The notes under the pieces: model-generated
Seen by the model: only the letters and a program-made list of their open reading frames with translations
What the model was told of the DNA's origin: nothing
Databases searched by the model: none
Made by a program: the position numbers and the translations under genes
NCBI RefSeq assembly: GCF_001651865.1
Contig: NZ_LPUX01000061.1
Coordinates: forward strand, 1-64,000
Length of the DNA stretch: 64,000 bases
Origin: Sinorhizobium glycinis
GTDB taxonomy: Bacteria; Pseudomonadota; Alphaproteobacteria; Rhizobiales; Rhizobiaceae
Direction of reading: 5' to 3'
In this document: positions 29,469 to 37,147 of the stretch, piece by piece
Layout of the letters: each line of letters opens with the position of its first letter
Position numbering within the stretch: the stretch's first letter is position 1

Positions 29469-30557
29469 ATGGCCACTCTCCAGAATTTTGACGCCGAGAT
29501 CGCCAAGACGCGCAGCGTCGTCGACGAGATGCGCGGCAAGCTCGAACAGTCGGGCGTCGTCCTCGAGCAATTCGCCAAGGCCGACACCAAGCTCGGCGAC
29601 GTCAACTTCGACATCGAGAACGCCCGCATCCAGGACGTGCTCAAACAGCAGAAGACGATGGAAGCCAATATCGCCGATCTGATCATCGGCCTCGAAGATG
29701 CGACGAACGTCTTCGGTGCCGAATTCGAGAGCATGAAGAGCTATACCGGCTACGAGAAGTTCATCGGCATCTTCTCCAAGCAGTCGATGCAGCGCATGCG
29801 CACCGACCGGGTACGCAACATGTCGCTTGCCGGCAATCTCCAGGAGCTGCTCGTCAAGTCCGACACCATCGTCGGCATCCTCAAGGAGCAGAAAGCGATC
29901 CTCGACCAGCGCTACAGGACATCCGAGCAGAGCCTCATCCAGGTGATCGAGCGCCGCAAGGGTACGATGGCCGCGCTCGTGGAGACCCAGAAGCGCATCG
30001 AGGAGCTCAATCCGCTGCTGCTCGACATCGAGAACCGAATCGCGGCTTCCACGGATCAGACGACCCGTACCGACCTTGAGGCCGAGCGCTCGCGGCTAGC
30101 AACCGAGTACAACGAGAAGCAGGCCAAGGAACAGGAACTGCTCGCCGAGAGCCAGACGCTCGAGCGCTACACGGCGATGTTCCAGACCTTCGTCGATTCG
30201 CTCAACAATCAGATCGCCGCGCAGAACACGCTGATTAACAAGCTGACGATCGATACCGAGCAGCGCATCGTGCTCTACAAGTCGCTGGAGGATTCGCTGA
30301 AGACGGCGGCACAGCAGGATGTGGCGCACAAGATCAACACGCTCGGCAGCCAGGTCGACACCGCCGCCGAGGAAACGATGGCCGGAATTGGCGCCGCCGC
30401 CCAGCGCCATATCGGCGACCTTCTCGAAATGCATGAAAAGAACATGCTTGCGACGCAGGATATCCAGCGGCGCAAGAAGCTGGCCGACGACGCCTTTGCC
30501 CGTCGCTTCCAGACGGTGATGGACAAGCACAATGCCGCAAACTACGTGAAGCAGTGA
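29469..30557 (+). CDS. Cytosolic coiled-coil protein, first gene of an uncharacterised cluster
   Basis: A 362-residue, largely helical protein with no signal peptide or membrane helix. Long charged heptad-like stretches (about residues 150-260, with IEERKG, LEAERSRLATEYNEKQAKE and similar) predict coiled coil. Its general character recalls TelA/toxic-anion-resistance proteins, but I see no diagnostic motif and do not assert the family. It is the first of five large codirectional genes up to 37147, so it may recruit or scaffold the AAA+ ATPase two genes downstream. Function unknown. Confidence 0.85.
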   Translation: MATLQNFDAEIAKTRSVVDEMRGKLEQSGVVLEQFAKADTKLGDVNFDIENARIQDVLKQQKTMEANIADLIIGLEDATNVFGAEFESMKSYTGYEKFIGIFSKQSMQRMRTDRVRNMSLAGNLQELLVKSDTIVGILKEQKAILDQRYRTSEQSLIQVIERRKGTMAALVETQKRIEELNPLLLDIENRIAASTDQTTRTDLEAERSRLATEYNEKQAKEQELLAESQTLERYTAMFQTFVDSLNNQIAAQNTLINKLTIDTEQRIVLYKSLEDSLKTAAQQDVAHKINTLGSQVDTAAEETMAGIGAAAQRHIGDLLEMHEKNMLATQDIQRRKKLADDAFARRFQTVMDKHNAANYVKQ

Positions 30558-30618
30558 TCGGCAAGGCGACAATGACCAGCCTTCCGACTGCCTTTCGGCA
30601 TTTGCCGGAGGGATTTTC

Positions 30619-31767
30619 ATGAATACCGCCGTATCTCCTGCCGTAAGGCAATATTTCACGTCGATCAGGGCCGCTCTGGCAGGGCTCGAGCTTTTTCTCG
30701 GCGACCGCAATTCGCCGCTTTATCGAGACACCGTCGTCGGCGAAGTCATCGTTCCCTATCTCATGCGGCTGAAGGCATCGGTTGCCTGCTGGGAAAATCG
30801 CATCGGCTTCGTCGAGCACTTCCGCATCTCGCGCGCCGAGAGCGGGTTTCCGGTCTTCCAGAATGTGCTGGAACTCGAGAACGACCGGCAGAGCGCCGAA
30901 AAGCGGCTGGCGAGCATCCCATCCGCCGATTCGCTCCGGGAGGAGATGGTCGATCTCATCCTGCGGCAGAAGGCCTTTCCGGAGGCGCTGCAAGCCCGCA
31001 TGGCGGAGCGGCTCTATCTCGAGCAGATCGGCAAGGGCGACATCTTCTCGCCCTTCATCCTGCCTGAGACGATCCGGGTCGGTGTCAACCCGCAGACGAT
31101 GCGGCCCTATTACGTCGTCGCCTGGGGCGCCTTTGACGGCACGCAGACGCTCCCGATGATCTACATGGCGACGATCGATGATTCTTCGGACAATATCGTC
31201 GAGATGCTGGTGACCGAAGACGGCAAGCTCAACCCGGAGATCGAGATCCCCTTGCCGGTCGGCGGGCTGCTCAACCCGGAGCTTGCCAGCCGTTTCGACG
31301 ATTTCGCCTCGAAGAACAGCGCCTATTCGCTGACGCCGGTGACGATCGCCACCAATCTCGACAAGGATTTCCCGGAACTGCATCCGAAGCAGTTGAGGCG
31401 TATCGTGCTCGGGCCGTTCTATTCGGCCGGAATTACCGAGAACAATGCCCGGATCAACGACATCCTCTCGAAGGTGCGCAAGACGGAGAATGCCTGGCTC
31501 CTGACCTGGACGGTGCAGGAGGTCTTCTCCAAGGCCGAGCGCCCCGCCGAGCGTGGCTTCTGGTCCTCGACGCCGGCTCAGGAGGAATTTCACATCGACA
31601 CCGGCAATCTCGAGGCCGCGCGCATGGGCGTCAGTGCCTATGAGAAACACGCCCTGGTGCCGCACGACGCCTACCAGGCGCTCTACGCGGCCGGCGAGGC
31701 GGCGCAGGTTTTTGGCGACTACAAGGTGCATGTGATCTCCGGCAACCAGGTGGTGAGCGAGGTTTGA
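30619..31767 (+). CDS. Conserved protein of unknown function (AAA cluster)
   Basis: A 382-residue soluble protein with no recognised domain. The N-terminal third is helical; the middle has a beta-rich section (PYYVVAWGAFDGTQTLPMIYMATIDDSSDNIVEMLV). No catalytic motif is apparent. It ends 3 bases before the AAA+ ATPase start, which implies translational coupling and suggests a complex with it. Not recognised; described only by context. Confidence 0.85.
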   Translation: MNTAVSPAVRQYFTSIRAALAGLELFLGDRNSPLYRDTVVGEVIVPYLMRLKASVACWENRIGFVEHFRISRAESGFPVFQNVLELENDRQSAEKRLASIPSADSLREEMVDLILRQKAFPEALQARMAERLYLEQIGKGDIFSPFILPETIRVGVNPQTMRPYYVVAWGAFDGTQTLPMIYMATIDDSSDNIVEMLVTEDGKLNPEIEIPLPVGGLLNPELASRFDDFASKNSAYSLTPVTIATNLDKDFPELHPKQLRRIVLGPFYSAGITENNARINDILSKVRKTENAWLLTWTVQEVFSKAERPAERGFWSSTPAQEEFHIDTGNLEAARMGVSAYEKHALVPHDAYQALYAAGEAAQVFGDYKVHVISGNQVVSEV

Positions 31768-31770
31768 GCG

Positions 31771-33681
31771 ATGACGCTGAATACAGGCCTGACGACGCTG
31801 CATGAGGATGACATCGCCAAGCACCAGGCGGTTGGGCAGAGCCTGGTTACCAAGCTCGTCATTCTCGAGCGGGACGAGCCTTCGGCGGGCACGCCGCTTG
31901 CAGGGACGGGGCGCCGCTTCGTCTCGACCGTCTCGACGGGCGGCCAGCGGCGGACTCGCGAGGTCGAGCTTGCACGCACCATCCAGCGCGGCGCCGATCC
32001 GCTGCTTTCGCCGGCACAGCACGCCGTCCTCTACCGCGTCCGGCGCGGCGTCCAGGTGGCGCTTGCCGTTTCGGACGTGTTCGCCCGGCAGACGAACCTC
32101 GAACAATTGCAGGCGCGCAATGCCGGCACGCCACTTGCCGGTGAGGACGCCAGCCACTTCAAGGCTCTGCTTTCGGCTTCGGCTTACGTCGCCGCCTTTA
32201 CGCTTGCGGCCTATCTCGGCGCGACGCTGCAGGGCGAGGGGGAGCCGGTCGACGATGCCGCCGAACCGGACTTTCTCTTCGACACTCCCCAGGACGCGCT
32301 GAAAAGCATGGTCGCCGCCCTCGATCGCAGCATCGCCGGTGCCCCGGACGATCTTGCCCTGACGGCGCGTTCTCGCGCCTTCTCCCGCGTCGCGATCGAA
32401 GGATTGCTTGCCCGCAAGGCGCGATTCACCGGGCTGCAGAATTTCGAGAACGTCCATATCCGGCTGGACCAGGATGATTTCACGCTCAACGGGTTCGATG
32501 TCGCGCCCGGGCAGAAGCGTAAACCCCTGGTCATGACCTTCAAGAAGCCGGAAGAAATCATCGGCAACCATATCGCCAAGCATCAGGCGCTGAAGCTCGC
32601 CAAGATGCTGATGGCCTACGACTTCGACCGGCAGATGAACCCCTTCGTCGAGCTCGGCGGCTTCCTCTTCACCTTCATCGGCGATGGGATGCCGGGAACC
32701 GGCAAGACGATATTGATCCAGATGCTTGCCGGCATGCTCCATGACTACTGCGGCGTTGCCGGCTACCCCTTCCACTACGAGAATTTCGGCGTCGACCAGA
32801 TCTCCTCTTACCAGGGCAAGTCAGGCCAGAACTGCAAGGAGTTCGTCAACAACGTCATGAACCCGCGGGCGATCGCCTTGGGCACCATCGACGATGTCGA
32901 CCAGGTGGCGGCGAAGCGCTCCGACGATCGCGCTTCCGCCGGCCAGCACGAGGTGACGGCGGTACTGATGGAAAGCTTCGCCGGCGCCTCGACCGTGGTG
33001 CGCGGCAATTGCACCTTCGGCATGTTCTCGAACCATCCGGAGAATGTCGACGACGCGCTGCGCCAACGGGCCGGCGCGCGCTGGCTCGTCGACGGGCCGC
33101 AGACGGAGGCCGACTATATCGACATTTTCGCGCTGCTGGTCGGCAAGAACCACGAGATCCCGCTCGGTCAGCACCAGCTCTATGCCGGGCAGGAGATCAA
33201 GCGCGCCGTTTCGCAATCCTATGCGGCGCATGCGCGGCCGCAGGAGGAGGGGCTCGCCGCCGTCTGGGAGCGCTACGAAAAGGAGAAGGGCAAGATCGCC
33301 TCGCTTGCCGATGTCGGCGCCTATCTGCACATGATCAAGGAAGCCGAGCCGCGCTTCACCGGCCGGGCGATCCGCAACATCACCGACGCGATCAAGATGC
33401 GGGCGATGGACGTCGAACTGCCGGACGACTGGTTCAAGGATGCGGGTTCCTTCATGCACAAGTCCTACGACGAGAAGAAGGGGATGATCGAGGAACTGCG
33501 CGGCCCGATCACCATCGAGATGGTGCTGCAGGAGATCAACCGCTACGCCGACAGCGAGTTCCGCTACACCGACAAATCGGACGACGCCGCCATTGCCGAG
33601 ATCATCCGCCGCGAGCGTCAGCGCGAGAAGGCGATCCGCGAGATCGAGACGATGAAGCGCGAGGGCCGGTGGCAGGGATGA
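31771..33681 (+). CDS. AAA+ ATPase of an uncharacterised cluster
   Basis: A 636-residue protein. The N-terminal 250 residues are unique. One classical AAA module follows: Walker A GDGMPGTGKT at residues 304-313, a Walker B-like GTIDDVDQV at 371-379 with a D-D pair instead of the usual D-E, and the arginine-finger region DDALRQRAGARW around 427-438. The C-terminal part is helical and charged. No membrane helix or protease domain, so it is a remodelling motor rather than an FtsH-type protease. Substrates are presumably the neighbouring products. Confidence 0.87.
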   Translation: MTLNTGLTTLHEDDIAKHQAVGQSLVTKLVILERDEPSAGTPLAGTGRRFVSTVSTGGQRRTREVELARTIQRGADPLLSPAQHAVLYRVRRGVQVALAVSDVFARQTNLEQLQARNAGTPLAGEDASHFKALLSASAYVAAFTLAAYLGATLQGEGEPVDDAAEPDFLFDTPQDALKSMVAALDRSIAGAPDDLALTARSRAFSRVAIEGLLARKARFTGLQNFENVHIRLDQDDFTLNGFDVAPGQKRKPLVMTFKKPEEIIGNHIAKHQALKLAKMLMAYDFDRQMNPFVELGGFLFTFIGDGMPGTGKTILIQMLAGMLHDYCGVAGYPFHYENFGVDQISSYQGKSGQNCKEFVNNVMNPRAIALGTIDDVDQVAAKRSDDRASAGQHEVTAVLMESFAGASTVVRGNCTFGMFSNHPENVDDALRQRAGARWLVDGPQTEADYIDIFALLVGKNHEIPLGQHQLYAGQEIKRAVSQSYAAHARPQEEGLAAVWERYEKEKGKIASLADVGAYLHMIKEAEPRFTGRAIRNITDAIKMRAMDVELPDDWFKDAGSFMHKSYDEKKGMIEELRGPITIEMVLQEINRYADSEFRYTDKSDDAAIAEIIRRERQREKAIREIETMKREGRWQG

Positions 33682-33726
33682 GTGATTACCTTATGGCCTT
33701 GTGCTTTGCCAGCGCCTTGGGCTTTG

Positions 33727-33935
33727 CCCCTCACCCTAACCCTCTCCCCGCACGCGGGGAGAGGGGACGAGGCAGGGAGGGGCAGCGCAGGTTTCTGCCA
33801 CAGATATTCATTTCCTGCTGTAAGGCAGTTCTGCACGAGAGAGCCAATGTGCTTATAGGGATGAAAAGGGGAGAAACGCGAACGCGTACCTCGTCCCCTC
33901 TCCCCGCTTGCGGGGAGAGGGTTAGGGTGAGGGGC
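33727..33935. repeat. Composite inverted-repeat element (RIME ends)
   Basis: The left end (CCCCTCACCCTAACCC... through GAGGGGACGAGG) is the inverse of the right end (CCTCGTCCCCTC... through GTTAGGGTGAGGGG), around a 115-base centre. It behaves as two RIME half-elements head to head, in the gap between the AAA+ gene and the DUF559 gene. Confidence 0.82.
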
Positions 33936-33958
33936 AACGCTCCGGCTGCGAGGCACCA

Positions 33959-34366
33959 ATGAGAGGAGCCAACGAACGCCGGACGCAACGGGCCAGAGAT
34001 CTCAGGCAAGGCGACAACGACGCGGAGTCGATCCTTTGGTCGGAGCTGAGGGACCGGCGCCTCAACGGCTTCAAGTTCGTGCGGCAATATCCTATCGGCG
34101 CCTACTTTGCTGATTTCGCCTGCCGCGATGCACGTCTCGTTATCGAGGTTGACGGCAGTCAAGATGCGGCTAGCGGTAAGGATTCTGTGCGCGACAGGTA
34201 CATGCTCCTGAACGGCTGGAGTGTGGCTCGCTTCTGGAACACGCACATATTCCATGATCGTGCCTCCGTTCTTGAAACAATCGTCGCCATTCTGGACAGG
34301 CGCCTGACGGCTGAGGTGAGGGGAGTGGATTTAACGTTCATTCCGGCGGGTGGAAGAGATGGCTGA
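33959..34366 (+). CDS. DUF559 (Vsr-like) endonuclease
   Basis: A 135-residue protein of the very-short-patch-repair-like DUF559 group. AESILWSELRDRRLNGFKFVRQ, then IGAYFADFACRDARLVIEVDGSQD, hold the nuclease-fold acidic residues (D in ADFAC, E and D in IEVDG). WSVARFWN-HIF near the end is typical. It lies inside the operon-like AAA cluster, bracketed by inverted-repeat elements. It looks like an insertion rather than a cluster member. Biological role of DUF559 proteins is not settled. Confidence 0.87.
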   Translation: MRGANERRTQRARDLRQGDNDAESILWSELRDRRLNGFKFVRQYPIGAYFADFACRDARLVIEVDGSQDAASGKDSVRDRYMLLNGWSVARFWNTHIFHDRASVLETIVAILDRRLTAEVRGVDLTFIPAGGRDG

Positions 34367-34399
34367 CGTATTGAGACATGCCGATCGCTCTGCCCGTCT

Positions 34400-34596
34400 C
34401 CTCGGGTTTAACCCGAGGACTAACCCTCTCCCCGCAGGCGGGGAGAGGGGACAAGGTCGCACCTCCGAACGACACCTCTTAGGCGCCGAGTTGGTCTTTG
34501 ACGATTTGTGGGGGATTTCGTTTCGGCAAACGGGCGCCCTTGAGTATGCCGCCATTCCCTCTCCCCGCGCGCGGGGAGAGGGTCAGGGTGAGGGGC
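34400..34596. repeat. Composite RIME-type element with extra palindrome
   Basis: Starts with the palindrome CCTCGGGTTTAACCCGAGG (34400-34418), followed by CTAACCCTCTCC and a GC-rich hairpin. It ends with a second hairpin and GGTCAGGGTGAGGGGC. About 100 bases lie between the two hairpins. It fills most of the gap between the DUF559 gene and the next cluster gene. Confidence 0.78.
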
Positions 34597-34633
34597 AGAG
34601 CGTGCGCCGCGCCGCGCCCCGGAGAATTGCCGC

Positions 34634-35923
34634 ATGAAGCGTCTCCTCGAAGCGGAACTCATCTACGGGCGGCTGCTCGATATCTCCGAGCCGCACCTCG
34701 TCGCGCGCTACAACAGGGCGCTCGAAGGCTTCGGGTTGAAGCCGACGGCGCTCAAACGCTTCAGCATCGATATGACCGGCTTCTCCCCGGAAATCGCCGA
34801 TGAACTCGGCGACCGCGACTATCTCGACCCGAACCGGGTCAACCGGCGCTTCATCGTCCTGACTCCGGCCCAGGCGGAGCTGCCGGTCGTCCATACAAGC
34901 TTTTCCAATACCGCGGCGCTGATGCACGAGTTCTTCAACGCCAACATGCGCGCGATCAACGCGGTCACGATCAAGGACGCGCTCTATGGCGAGATCGAGG
35001 ATTCCGTGTCGGTGGTCGAGGACATCGACGATCTCTTGTCGATCAACGAGGTCCGCTTCCGGGTGCTCTCCGCCGAGGACATGCTCGGCAAGGCGGCGGA
35101 GCTACGAGAGCTTGTCGACCGGCTGAAGAAGGTCCCGACCGCCTGGTCCGACGACGCGATGCTGAACCGGATGGTGGAACTTGCCAAGCTGACCGGCGAC
35201 ATCCGTCAGAACGCGCTCGTCCCCGAGGAGCTGGTCTTCCGCCACGAGGCTTTCTGGGCCAACCATTTCGGCGGCGTCTACGTGTTCCTCGACGAGAAGA
35301 CGACGACGGTGATCTGCGATCCTTCGGTGCCGGGCTTCCGGCGCTCGCGACCCTGGCAGGTGAGCTACATCGCCATCGGCGATCACGCGCGCATCTACGA
35401 TTTCCTGGCCTCGACCAATCGGCTGCAACTTCCGCAGGCCTCCTGGGTGCAGGAGTCGGGGCTGTTCCAGCACCGGGCCGACATGGTCATCCGCGGGCTG
35501 ATCAACGAGGCCGATCCGGATGCGGATCTCCTCAATGCAGACCGGATCTGGCTGCAGACCTGGATCCATCGCAACGCCGCACTCGTCGCGCGTGACGGGA
35601 GCTATCCCTTCCTTCAGGAAATGTCGCGGGCGATCGCCGCGACCGGCACGATCAAGATGCAGGAGATCGCACCGGAAAACCGGTTCCTGCTTACGAGGGC
35701 GGCCCCCGACCATCCGGACAGATGGCTGGTCAACCAGCTCATTTCGCAGCTCGTGCCGCGCGACTTCGTCTCGCGCTTCGTGTTCGACAAGCAGGGTTTT
35801 TACGGTGCCTACGAGCGCTACAGCGAAAAGTTCCGCGAATATGTTGTGGCGACGTTGACGGGCACATATCTGAAAGACAAGGCCGCCTTCCGCCGCAAGC
35901 TCTACGGTCTCAAAGAGGAATAA
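34634..35923 (+). CDS. Uncharacterised protein of the AAA cluster (possible DUF6638)
   Basis: A 429-residue soluble protein, no signal or membrane segment. Opening MKRLLEAELIYGRLLDISEPHLVARYN; a middle section (FGGVYVFLDEKTTTVICDPSVPGF) of mixed alpha/beta character. I recall the family as DUF6638, unverified. It starts after the repeat-flanked insertion and ends 3 bases before the membrane-protein gene, so those two are surely cotranscribed. Function unknown. Confidence 0.83.
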   Translation: MKRLLEAELIYGRLLDISEPHLVARYNRALEGFGLKPTALKRFSIDMTGFSPEIADELGDRDYLDPNRVNRRFIVLTPAQAELPVVHTSFSNTAALMHEFFNANMRAINAVTIKDALYGEIEDSVSVVEDIDDLLSINEVRFRVLSAEDMLGKAAELRELVDRLKKVPTAWSDDAMLNRMVELAKLTGDIRQNALVPEELVFRHEAFWANHFGGVYVFLDEKTTTVICDPSVPGFRRSRPWQVSYIAIGDHARIYDFLASTNRLQLPQASWVQESGLFQHRADMVIRGLINEADPDADLLNADRIWLQTWIHRNAALVARDGSYPFLQEMSRAIAATGTIKMQEIAPENRFLLTRAAPDHPDRWLVNQLISQLVPRDFVSRFVFDKQGFYGAYERYSEKFREYVVATLTGTYLKDKAAFRRKLYGLKEE

Positions 35924-35926
35924 GAC

Positions 35927-37147
35927 ATGCTCGATCCGATCGTTGTGTTTTTTCAGCGCGTGTTCACGGCGATCGGCCGCGGCATAGGACTGGCGGTCTC
36001 CTGGTTCCTCTGGCCCTTCGTGGCGCTCGCCAACTGGTATCGAGCGAGGAGCTGGATCATCAAGGGCCCGGTCGGCCTCATCCTGCTCGGACTGATCGTC
36101 TTCTACGGCTACTTCGTCTGGCAGACGCAGGCCTGGACCAATTTCGATCCGGACTATGTCGATCGCTACAAGCTTTCCGAGCGCAAGGTGCCGGCCGGCT
36201 CGCCGATCAGCGGTCCCGGCACGACGACGGGACAATCCGGTAGCGCGGCCGCGGCGAGCCAGGCCGCTGCCGTCGCGCCCTCGGACGCATCGACGACCGA
36301 AGCGCTGGATATGGCGCAACTGCCGGCCGGTACGGTCTGCCAGACCTCGGCGGTGGTCGACGTGGCCGCCGATCTCATCGACCTCACCGTCAACCAGAAT
36401 GCCTGGATCTCCTCGATGCTCGCCTACAAGCTCGGACTGTTCGGGCTCGACTGGGACGACACGCCCTGGCTCGACAACAAGGCGTCGTTCCAGCGCGGCA
36501 TCAACCAGGCCGTCCGGCGCACCACCGTCGAGCTGGTCGACTCGCTCGGCCGGGTCCGCGGTACGTCCGGCGTCAACAATGACCTGCAAAGCGCCCGCGG
36601 CAACATCCAGTTCGACGAAGAAACCTGGTATTTCGGGATCAATCCCTTCGGTCCCAAGACCCCGACACCGAGCTTCTATCGCGCCGCCATGCGCGATCTC
36701 AGGAAGTTCAACATCTCGCTCGGCAAGTGCGAGGCGATCTTCGACGGCCGCTCCGACAACATGGTCGAATTCCTCGACCGCATCGCCAACGATCTCGGCA
36801 ACACGTCGGCGATCATCCGCGAACGGTCCGAATTCCACAATGGCGGCTGGTTCGACACGCGCGCCGACGACCGCTTCTGGTTCGCCTTCGGCCAGCTCTA
36901 CGGCTACTACGGCATCCTCTCGGCGGCCGGCGCCGATTTCGAGAACGTCGTCGCCCAGCGCGGCCTCACTCCGATCTACACGGAAACGATGAAGCAGCTT
37001 CGCTCGGCGCTGCGCATCCAGCCGCTGATCATCTCGAACGGCCGCGAGGACGGCTGGATCATGCCGACGCATCTGGCGACAATGGGCTTCTACATTCTTC
37101 GCGTGCGGTCCAACCTCGTGGAGATGCGCGACATCCTTGCCCGTTGA
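35927..37147 (+). CDS. DUF2333-type membrane-anchored protein
   Basis: A 406-residue protein with a hydrophobic N-terminal segment (about residues 12-35), a second helix (GPVGLILLGLIVFYGYFVW, about 47-65), then a Ser/Ala/Thr-rich linker and a large domain. The C-terminal domain (GNIQFDEETWYFGINPFGPKTPTPSFYRAAM, ERSEFHNGGWFDTRADDRFWFAFGQLYGYYGI) matches my recollection of DUF2333. Topology suggests most of the protein is periplasmic. It would tether the cytosolic AAA+ cluster to the inner membrane; this is inference. Confidence 0.82.
   Translation: MLDPIVVFFQRVFTAIGRGIGLAVSWFLWPFVALANWYRARSWIIKGPVGLILLGLIVFYGYFVWQTQAWTNFDPDYVDRYKLSERKVPAGSPISGPGTTTGQSGSAAAASQAAAVAPSDASTTEALDMAQLPAGTVCQTSAVVDVAADLIDLTVNQNAWISSMLAYKLGLFGLDWDDTPWLDNKASFQRGINQAVRRTTVELVDSLGRVRGTSGVNNDLQSARGNIQFDEETWYFGINPFGPKTPTPSFYRAAMRDLRKFNISLGKCEAIFDGRSDNMVEFLDRIANDLGNTSAIIRERSEFHNGGWFDTRADDRFWFAFGQLYGYYGILSAAGADFENVVAQRGLTPIYTETMKQLRSALRIQPLIISNGREDGWIMPTHLATMGFYILRVRSNLVEMRDILAR

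Follow-up and report, generated by a model that had tools for sequence, protein, structure and literature searches.

The window, a stretch of 64,000 nucleotides from Sinorhizobium glycinis, harbors five genes, termed here A to E, whose positions are collected in Table 1 together with those of a DUF559 insert that does not belong to the core. The initial annotation described five codirectional reading frames spaced by 3 to 61 bases except at one gap, and all five are present on the plus strand where it placed them, with 61 bases between A and B, 3 between B and C, 3 between D and E, and 952 in the invaded gap between C and D. Genes A–E are under strong purifying selection (dN/dS 0.03–0.14), comparable to that on the adjoining housekeeping gene fhs, and the DUF559 insert is held more loosely (0.21). 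A search of Rfam gives no match, and the count of sigma-70-like promoters is not above chance.

Table 1. Features of the A–E locus, in window positions
Feature	Position	Strand	Basis or remark
Gene A, 362 residues, putative coiled-coil protein	29469..30557	+	ORF; no Pfam family
Gene B, 382 residues, no known family	30619..31767	+	ORF; model pLDDT 88.7
Gene C, 636 residues, AAA+ ATPase	31771..33681	+	Pfam PF00004
Palindromic repeat CCCTCTCCCCGC..GCGGGGAGAGGG of the putative DUF559 cassette	33740..33765		
Further palindrome copies	33896-33921, 34424-34449, 34557-34582		
DUF559 nuclease-like gene, insert in the C-D gap, outside the core	33959..34366	+	Pfam, 8e-33
Gene D, 429 residues, DUF6638	34634..35923	+	Pfam; model pLDDT 90.5
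Gene E, 406 residues, DUF2333	35927..37147	+	Pfam; N-terminal membrane helix or helices

C matches the AAA family with 43.6 bits against a cut-off of 21.2 (E 5e-11, Pfam). Its AAA module spans residues ~302–450 and follows an N-terminal region of ~300 residues that belongs to no known family. The protein carries a Walker A motif GDGxPGTGKT (G306–T313), a pore-loop tyrosine (Y347), a Walker B motif IDDID, a sensor-1 asparagine (N421), the arginines R431, R433, and R437, and a sensor-2-like FTGR with R532, while the loop SSYQGKSGQ corresponds in alignment to the AFG2 pore-loop region. Key motor residues, including Walker A, N421, and R431/R433/R437, are invariant across 28 aligned C proteins, and most key residues are kept in Vibrio at 39% identity, including Walker A, the asparagine, and ALRQR. 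The ID-D Walker B pointed out by the initial annotation proves to be a family trait: the motif is of the IDDID type in all members, and its aspartates are invariant in the 28 aligned proteins. It does not contain the catalytic glutamate of a DE-type Walker B. Asp375 takes the place of this residue, as it does in Vibrio and all other members, so ATP hydrolysis by C is not assured.

The closest AAA+ relatives of C are 95% identical and occur in S. fredii USDA 205 and its kin. Its best sequence matches to classical AAA ATPases have E values of about 5e-6. Like C, classical AAA proteins (AFG2, PAN/Rpt, i-AAA, and fidgetin) possess Walker A, a pore-loop aromatic-x-Gly, sensor 1, and the arginines; C differs from them in the Walker B aspartate, the sensor-2-like FTGR, the orphan N-terminal 300 residues, and the lack of a protease domain. 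The zinc peptidase domain of i-AAA/FtsH is absent from C, for which AAA is the sole Pfam match above cut-off. BCS1 has an aspartate at the catalytic position, and C is unlike it in having neither a BCS1 domain nor a clear membrane helix. C has a weak match to the TRIP13 profile (TRIP13/Pch2; 1.3e-5, PADLOC), and Pfam finds no HORMA partner family among the other four proteins.

None of the proteins A–D has a clear transmembrane segment. A has no membrane segment and only one proline in 362 residues, which is consistent with an all-helical architecture, and it is probably a coiled-coil protein. No match between A and PspA_IM30 or Snf7 is found in Pfam at E ≤ 1 or among PDB sequences, leaving an origin from PspA/ESCRT proteins unsupported by sequence; TelA (PF05816) was also rejected as an origin, with an hhalign probability of 0.5% obtained from shallow alignments. 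A and B fall into no family of Pfam, NCBIfam, PADLOC, or PHROGs, and neither B nor D has informative homologs. The model of B is helical in its N-terminal half and weakly T-fold-like in its C-terminal half, which retrieves urate oxidase, dihydroneopterin aldolase, and GTP cyclohydrolase chains at Z 3.4–5.3. These matches, the best of which is urate oxidase (Z 5.3, rmsd 3.9, 126 aligned; best Foldseek E only 0.27), weakly point to one consistent superfamily, yet lie below the level at which they would mean much.

D matches DUF6638 over residues 11–428 with 254 bits (cut-off 27, E 3e-75, Pfam). Its model is confident, yet at E ≤ 0.001 neither PDB nor BFVD yields a match, and the best candidate for a known fold, VIA, has a Z of 4.6 over 43 residues, a result that does not by itself prove a new fold. 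E matches DUF2333 in two stretches with 60.5 bits (cut-off 22, E 1.7e-16, Pfam) and has a strong hydrophobic segment at ~42–66, with the basic stretch NWYRARSWIIK ahead of it. Applied to this arrangement, the positive-inside rule would put the large C-terminal domain in the periplasm, a predicted location with which the two invariant cysteines C138 and C268 are consistent, in agreement with the earlier description of E as a DUF2333-type protein with a likely periplasmic domain. DUF6638 and DUF2333 are uncharacterized Pfam families, as is DUF1523, the family of the alternative membrane partner described below; all three proteins are members by curated score. In the literature searched, no paper was found on DUF6638, DUF2333 received one incidental mention, and no grouping of the three families with A, B, and C as one system was found.

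The distribution of the genes within the family was followed in one draw of 81 Rhizobiaceae-type genomes, scored for A, C, D, and E, with B seen in loci long enough to show it; this and the other genome draws are samples. C is present in 48 of the 81 genomes and D in the identical 48. A occurs in those 48 and, as a strongly diverged remnant copy, in two more. E is found in 48/48 genomes with C and D and also in 12 of the 33 without them (Fisher p 3e-11). The order A-B-C-D-E is kept in 80 contig loci, truncated contigs aside, with mostly constant flanks (choX, tdk, fhs). Two of the 48 genomes with C and D (G683, G700) have D-E separated from A-B-C or on a different contig. All complete loci examined conserve the order A-B-C-D. 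The best-conserved member is A, with 80–99% identity in the family and about 39–42% outside it. Conserved order, co-occurrence, and low dN/dS together place the arrangement far beyond chance. A-B-C-D so behave as an all-or-none unit, and E is their constant companion, able to occur alone and not part of the core.

Remnants of the cluster persist in genus g278 and in G623, where C and D were not found, B was undetected at the locus, and A still adjoins a persisting E (L249, L250, L251, L252). The remnant A is fast-diverging, with 24–31% identity, and has lost SLKTAxQQDVAHxIN, its most conserved C-terminal block. As this block disappeared along with C and D, it is a candidate contact site with the lost proteins. 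A relation between A and E that does not depend on the motor is likely.

Outside the Rhizobiaceae, 16 clusters were collected from families f25, f107, f157, and f179 and from one genome outside the class (f197). All 16 keep A-B-C-D without E and have a DUF1523 membrane protein after D; closely read loci have a small hydrophobic protein separating the two. DUF1523 is encoded by exactly one gene per genome in 10 of these genomes searched and was not found in nine Rhizobiaceae-type genomes searched. DUF2333 is absent altogether from four f25 genomes, and G335 and G211 carry it elsewhere in the genome. No conserved neighbor of DUF2333 was found outside the cluster, where the adjoining genes varied (Usp, YkuD, NUDIX, and others). 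Megaplasmids of V. vulnificus and V. parahaemolyticus, known from plasmid records only, also carry A-B-C-D, with identities of 39% for C and A, 27% for B, and 23% for D, and with neither E nor DUF1523 adjoining D. With E found in genomes that lack C and D, and no gene of either membrane family adjoining D in Vibrio, the membrane link is not universal.

A-B-C-D thus adjoin across Rhizobiaceae, other alphaproteobacteria, and Vibrio megaplasmids, and a coincidental cluster, against which the initial annotation had proposed a check of gene neighborhoods, is not what is found. Its five-gene set stands as an A-B-C-D core; E, which is replaced by DUF1523 outside the Rhizobiaceae and also occurs alone, drops out of it. 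In a sample of 398 genomes of the phylum, C occurs in 26, of which 25 belong to the window's taxonomic class. Searches of phage records and viral contigs detected no C, and PHROGs returned AAA matches of C only; a phage or viral origin was rejected on these grounds.

The gap between C and D is an insertion hotspot. With gaps of over 400 bases counted as filled, it is filled in 63 of 114 loci, compared with 6/116 for A-B, 3/116 for B-C, and 0/95 for D-E (Fisher p<1e-17; the loci are not phylogenetically independent). The tree of C requires at least 25 switches between a filled and an empty gap and 38 between cargo classes. The cargo, nearly always codirectional, comprises DUF559 (23 loci), a RelE/ParE-type toxin with an XRE (16) or RHH (7) antitoxin, a PIN toxin with Phd (5), and, singly, AbiJ_NTD4, DUF3825, a phospholipase D gene, and an IS. 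Even among Shinella relatives, the gap holds RHH, XRE, or DUF559 cargo or nothing. In most cases the final toxin-antitoxin gene stops no more than 24 bases from D, and it often shares an ATGA overlap with the D start. What had been noted as an invaded gap is therefore a real hotspot, in which DUF559/palindrome cassettes and toxin-antitoxin types replace one another. Because it is empty in 51 of the 114 loci, we regard it as a joint that tolerates insertions, not as a slot for effectors.

Four palindromic repeats frame the DUF559 gene in the window, between 33740 and 34582. The same palindrome accompanies 18 of 23 DUF559 loci, 0/40 other filled gaps, and 0/51 empty gaps, a recurrent pairing which suggests that gene and palindrome constitute one mobile cassette. 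Two other DUF559 genes lie in the genome, one with a palindrome nearby (L282) and one without (L280).

Individual inserts show further variety. At L116 (4122-4924), the 5′ edge of a PIN/Phd insert in the C-D gap nearly copies the first bases of D and the stop codon of the toxin gene overlaps the start of D, as though insertion had duplicated its target and restored translational coupling. Cargo is rarer at the other joints, where reading frames compared with the pooled Pfam result place a Fic-type protein between B and C in L142 (7194-7997) and one of SPFH/band-7 type between A and B in L145 (5859-6794). The C-D cargo outside the Rhizobiaceae (L151 10462-11484, L152 8305-9126, L240 8058-8813) includes AbiJ_NTD4 and DUF3825 proteins and one protein without a family that is common to L244.

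The reading preferred here, to which we give about an even chance, is that A-B-C-D form one ATP-driven protein-remodelling machine docked at the inner membrane via an exchangeable, periplasm-facing subunit. C would be a motor of the ring-forming AAA+ type that threads its substrate by means of the pore-loop tyrosine. A may be a helical scaffold or polymer, acting either as the substrate of C or as its recruiter, and B and D would serve as adaptor or substrate-recognition subunits. Docking would proceed through the partner encoded downstream, whose large domain would face the periplasm: DUF2333 in Rhizobiaceae and DUF1523, usually with the small hydrophobic protein, in other lineages. The most likely job would be the insertion, extraction, or remodelling of an envelope protein complex upon periplasmic conditions. 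The small cytosolic surface of E and DUF1523 counts against this reading. Of the membrane-tethered machine originally proposed, the cluster is real and the machine plausible; E as its anchor is specific to one lineage.

An ESCRT-III/Vps4-like or PSP-like system, in which A would polymerize on the inner leaflet and be disassembled by C, thereby stabilizing damaged membrane, is an unlikely alternative account of the same parts. It agrees with the position of a helical A next to an AAA+ protein with a pore-loop tyrosine, and it has a precedent in bacteria, where PspA/Snf7 genes adjoin AAA+ genes and ATP-dependent membrane remodelling has been inferred (PMC11237479). Those operons resemble the present cluster in pairing a helical scaffold gene with an AAA+ gene, with a membrane partner near (PMC11237479). 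However, A is not a detectable PspA/Snf7 homolog by the Pfam and PDB comparisons above, B and D have no counterpart there, and Pfam detects no MIT domain in C. The lack of clear transmembrane segments in A–D, the 12 genomes with E alone, and the missing membrane genes next to D in Vibrio would suit a purely cytosolic AAA+ maturation chaperone of CbbX/MoxR-like logic, acting on a cytosolic enzyme, with E and DUF1523 merely co-transcribed. This is quite unlikely, given that two unrelated families supply a membrane partner, whose domain is predicted to be periplasmic, downstream of D in the alphaproteobacterial clusters, and that remnant A remains next to E once C and D are lost.

The DUF559, RelE/ParE with XRE or RHH, PIN with Phd, AbiJ_NTD4, and other cargo would be expected of a biological-conflict (anti-phage) system with an A–D core and the C-D slot as an interchangeable effector, as might the weak PADLOC matches of C to TRIP13 and IetA. 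Such a role is very unlikely: the slot is often empty, as counted above, the locus retains its chromosomal neighbors, purifying selection is strong, A, B, D, and E have no PADLOC match, and C is in no phage record or viral contig searched. A known defence system was likewise rejected, PADLOC having given weak AAA matches only. Returning to the docked remodelling machine, it is conceivable, if doubtful, that it represents a class of AAA+ envelope machines not described before in bacteria, in which a conserved four-protein motor core would connect to the periplasm by way of unrelated membrane subunits that can be exchanged, and whose operon takes up toxin-antitoxin modules at one joint, the cassette possibly protecting the operon from loss.

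In S. meliloti, a DNA fragment bound by ChvI lies inside SMc02733 (PMC3687685), and shmR is SMc02726 (PMC8343143). Judged by tag order, SMc02733 probably lies in the cluster orthologous to A–E; if it does, the cluster would be tied to envelope-stress control. Three uncharacterized Pfam families, two unnamed proteins, and an AAA+ motor come together as one testable system, which occurs in nitrogen-fixing symbionts and other alphaproteobacteria. The natural swap of its membrane subunit predicts which interfaces must exist, and the C-D gap is a defined joint of the operon at which closely related species gain and lose toxin-antitoxin modules.
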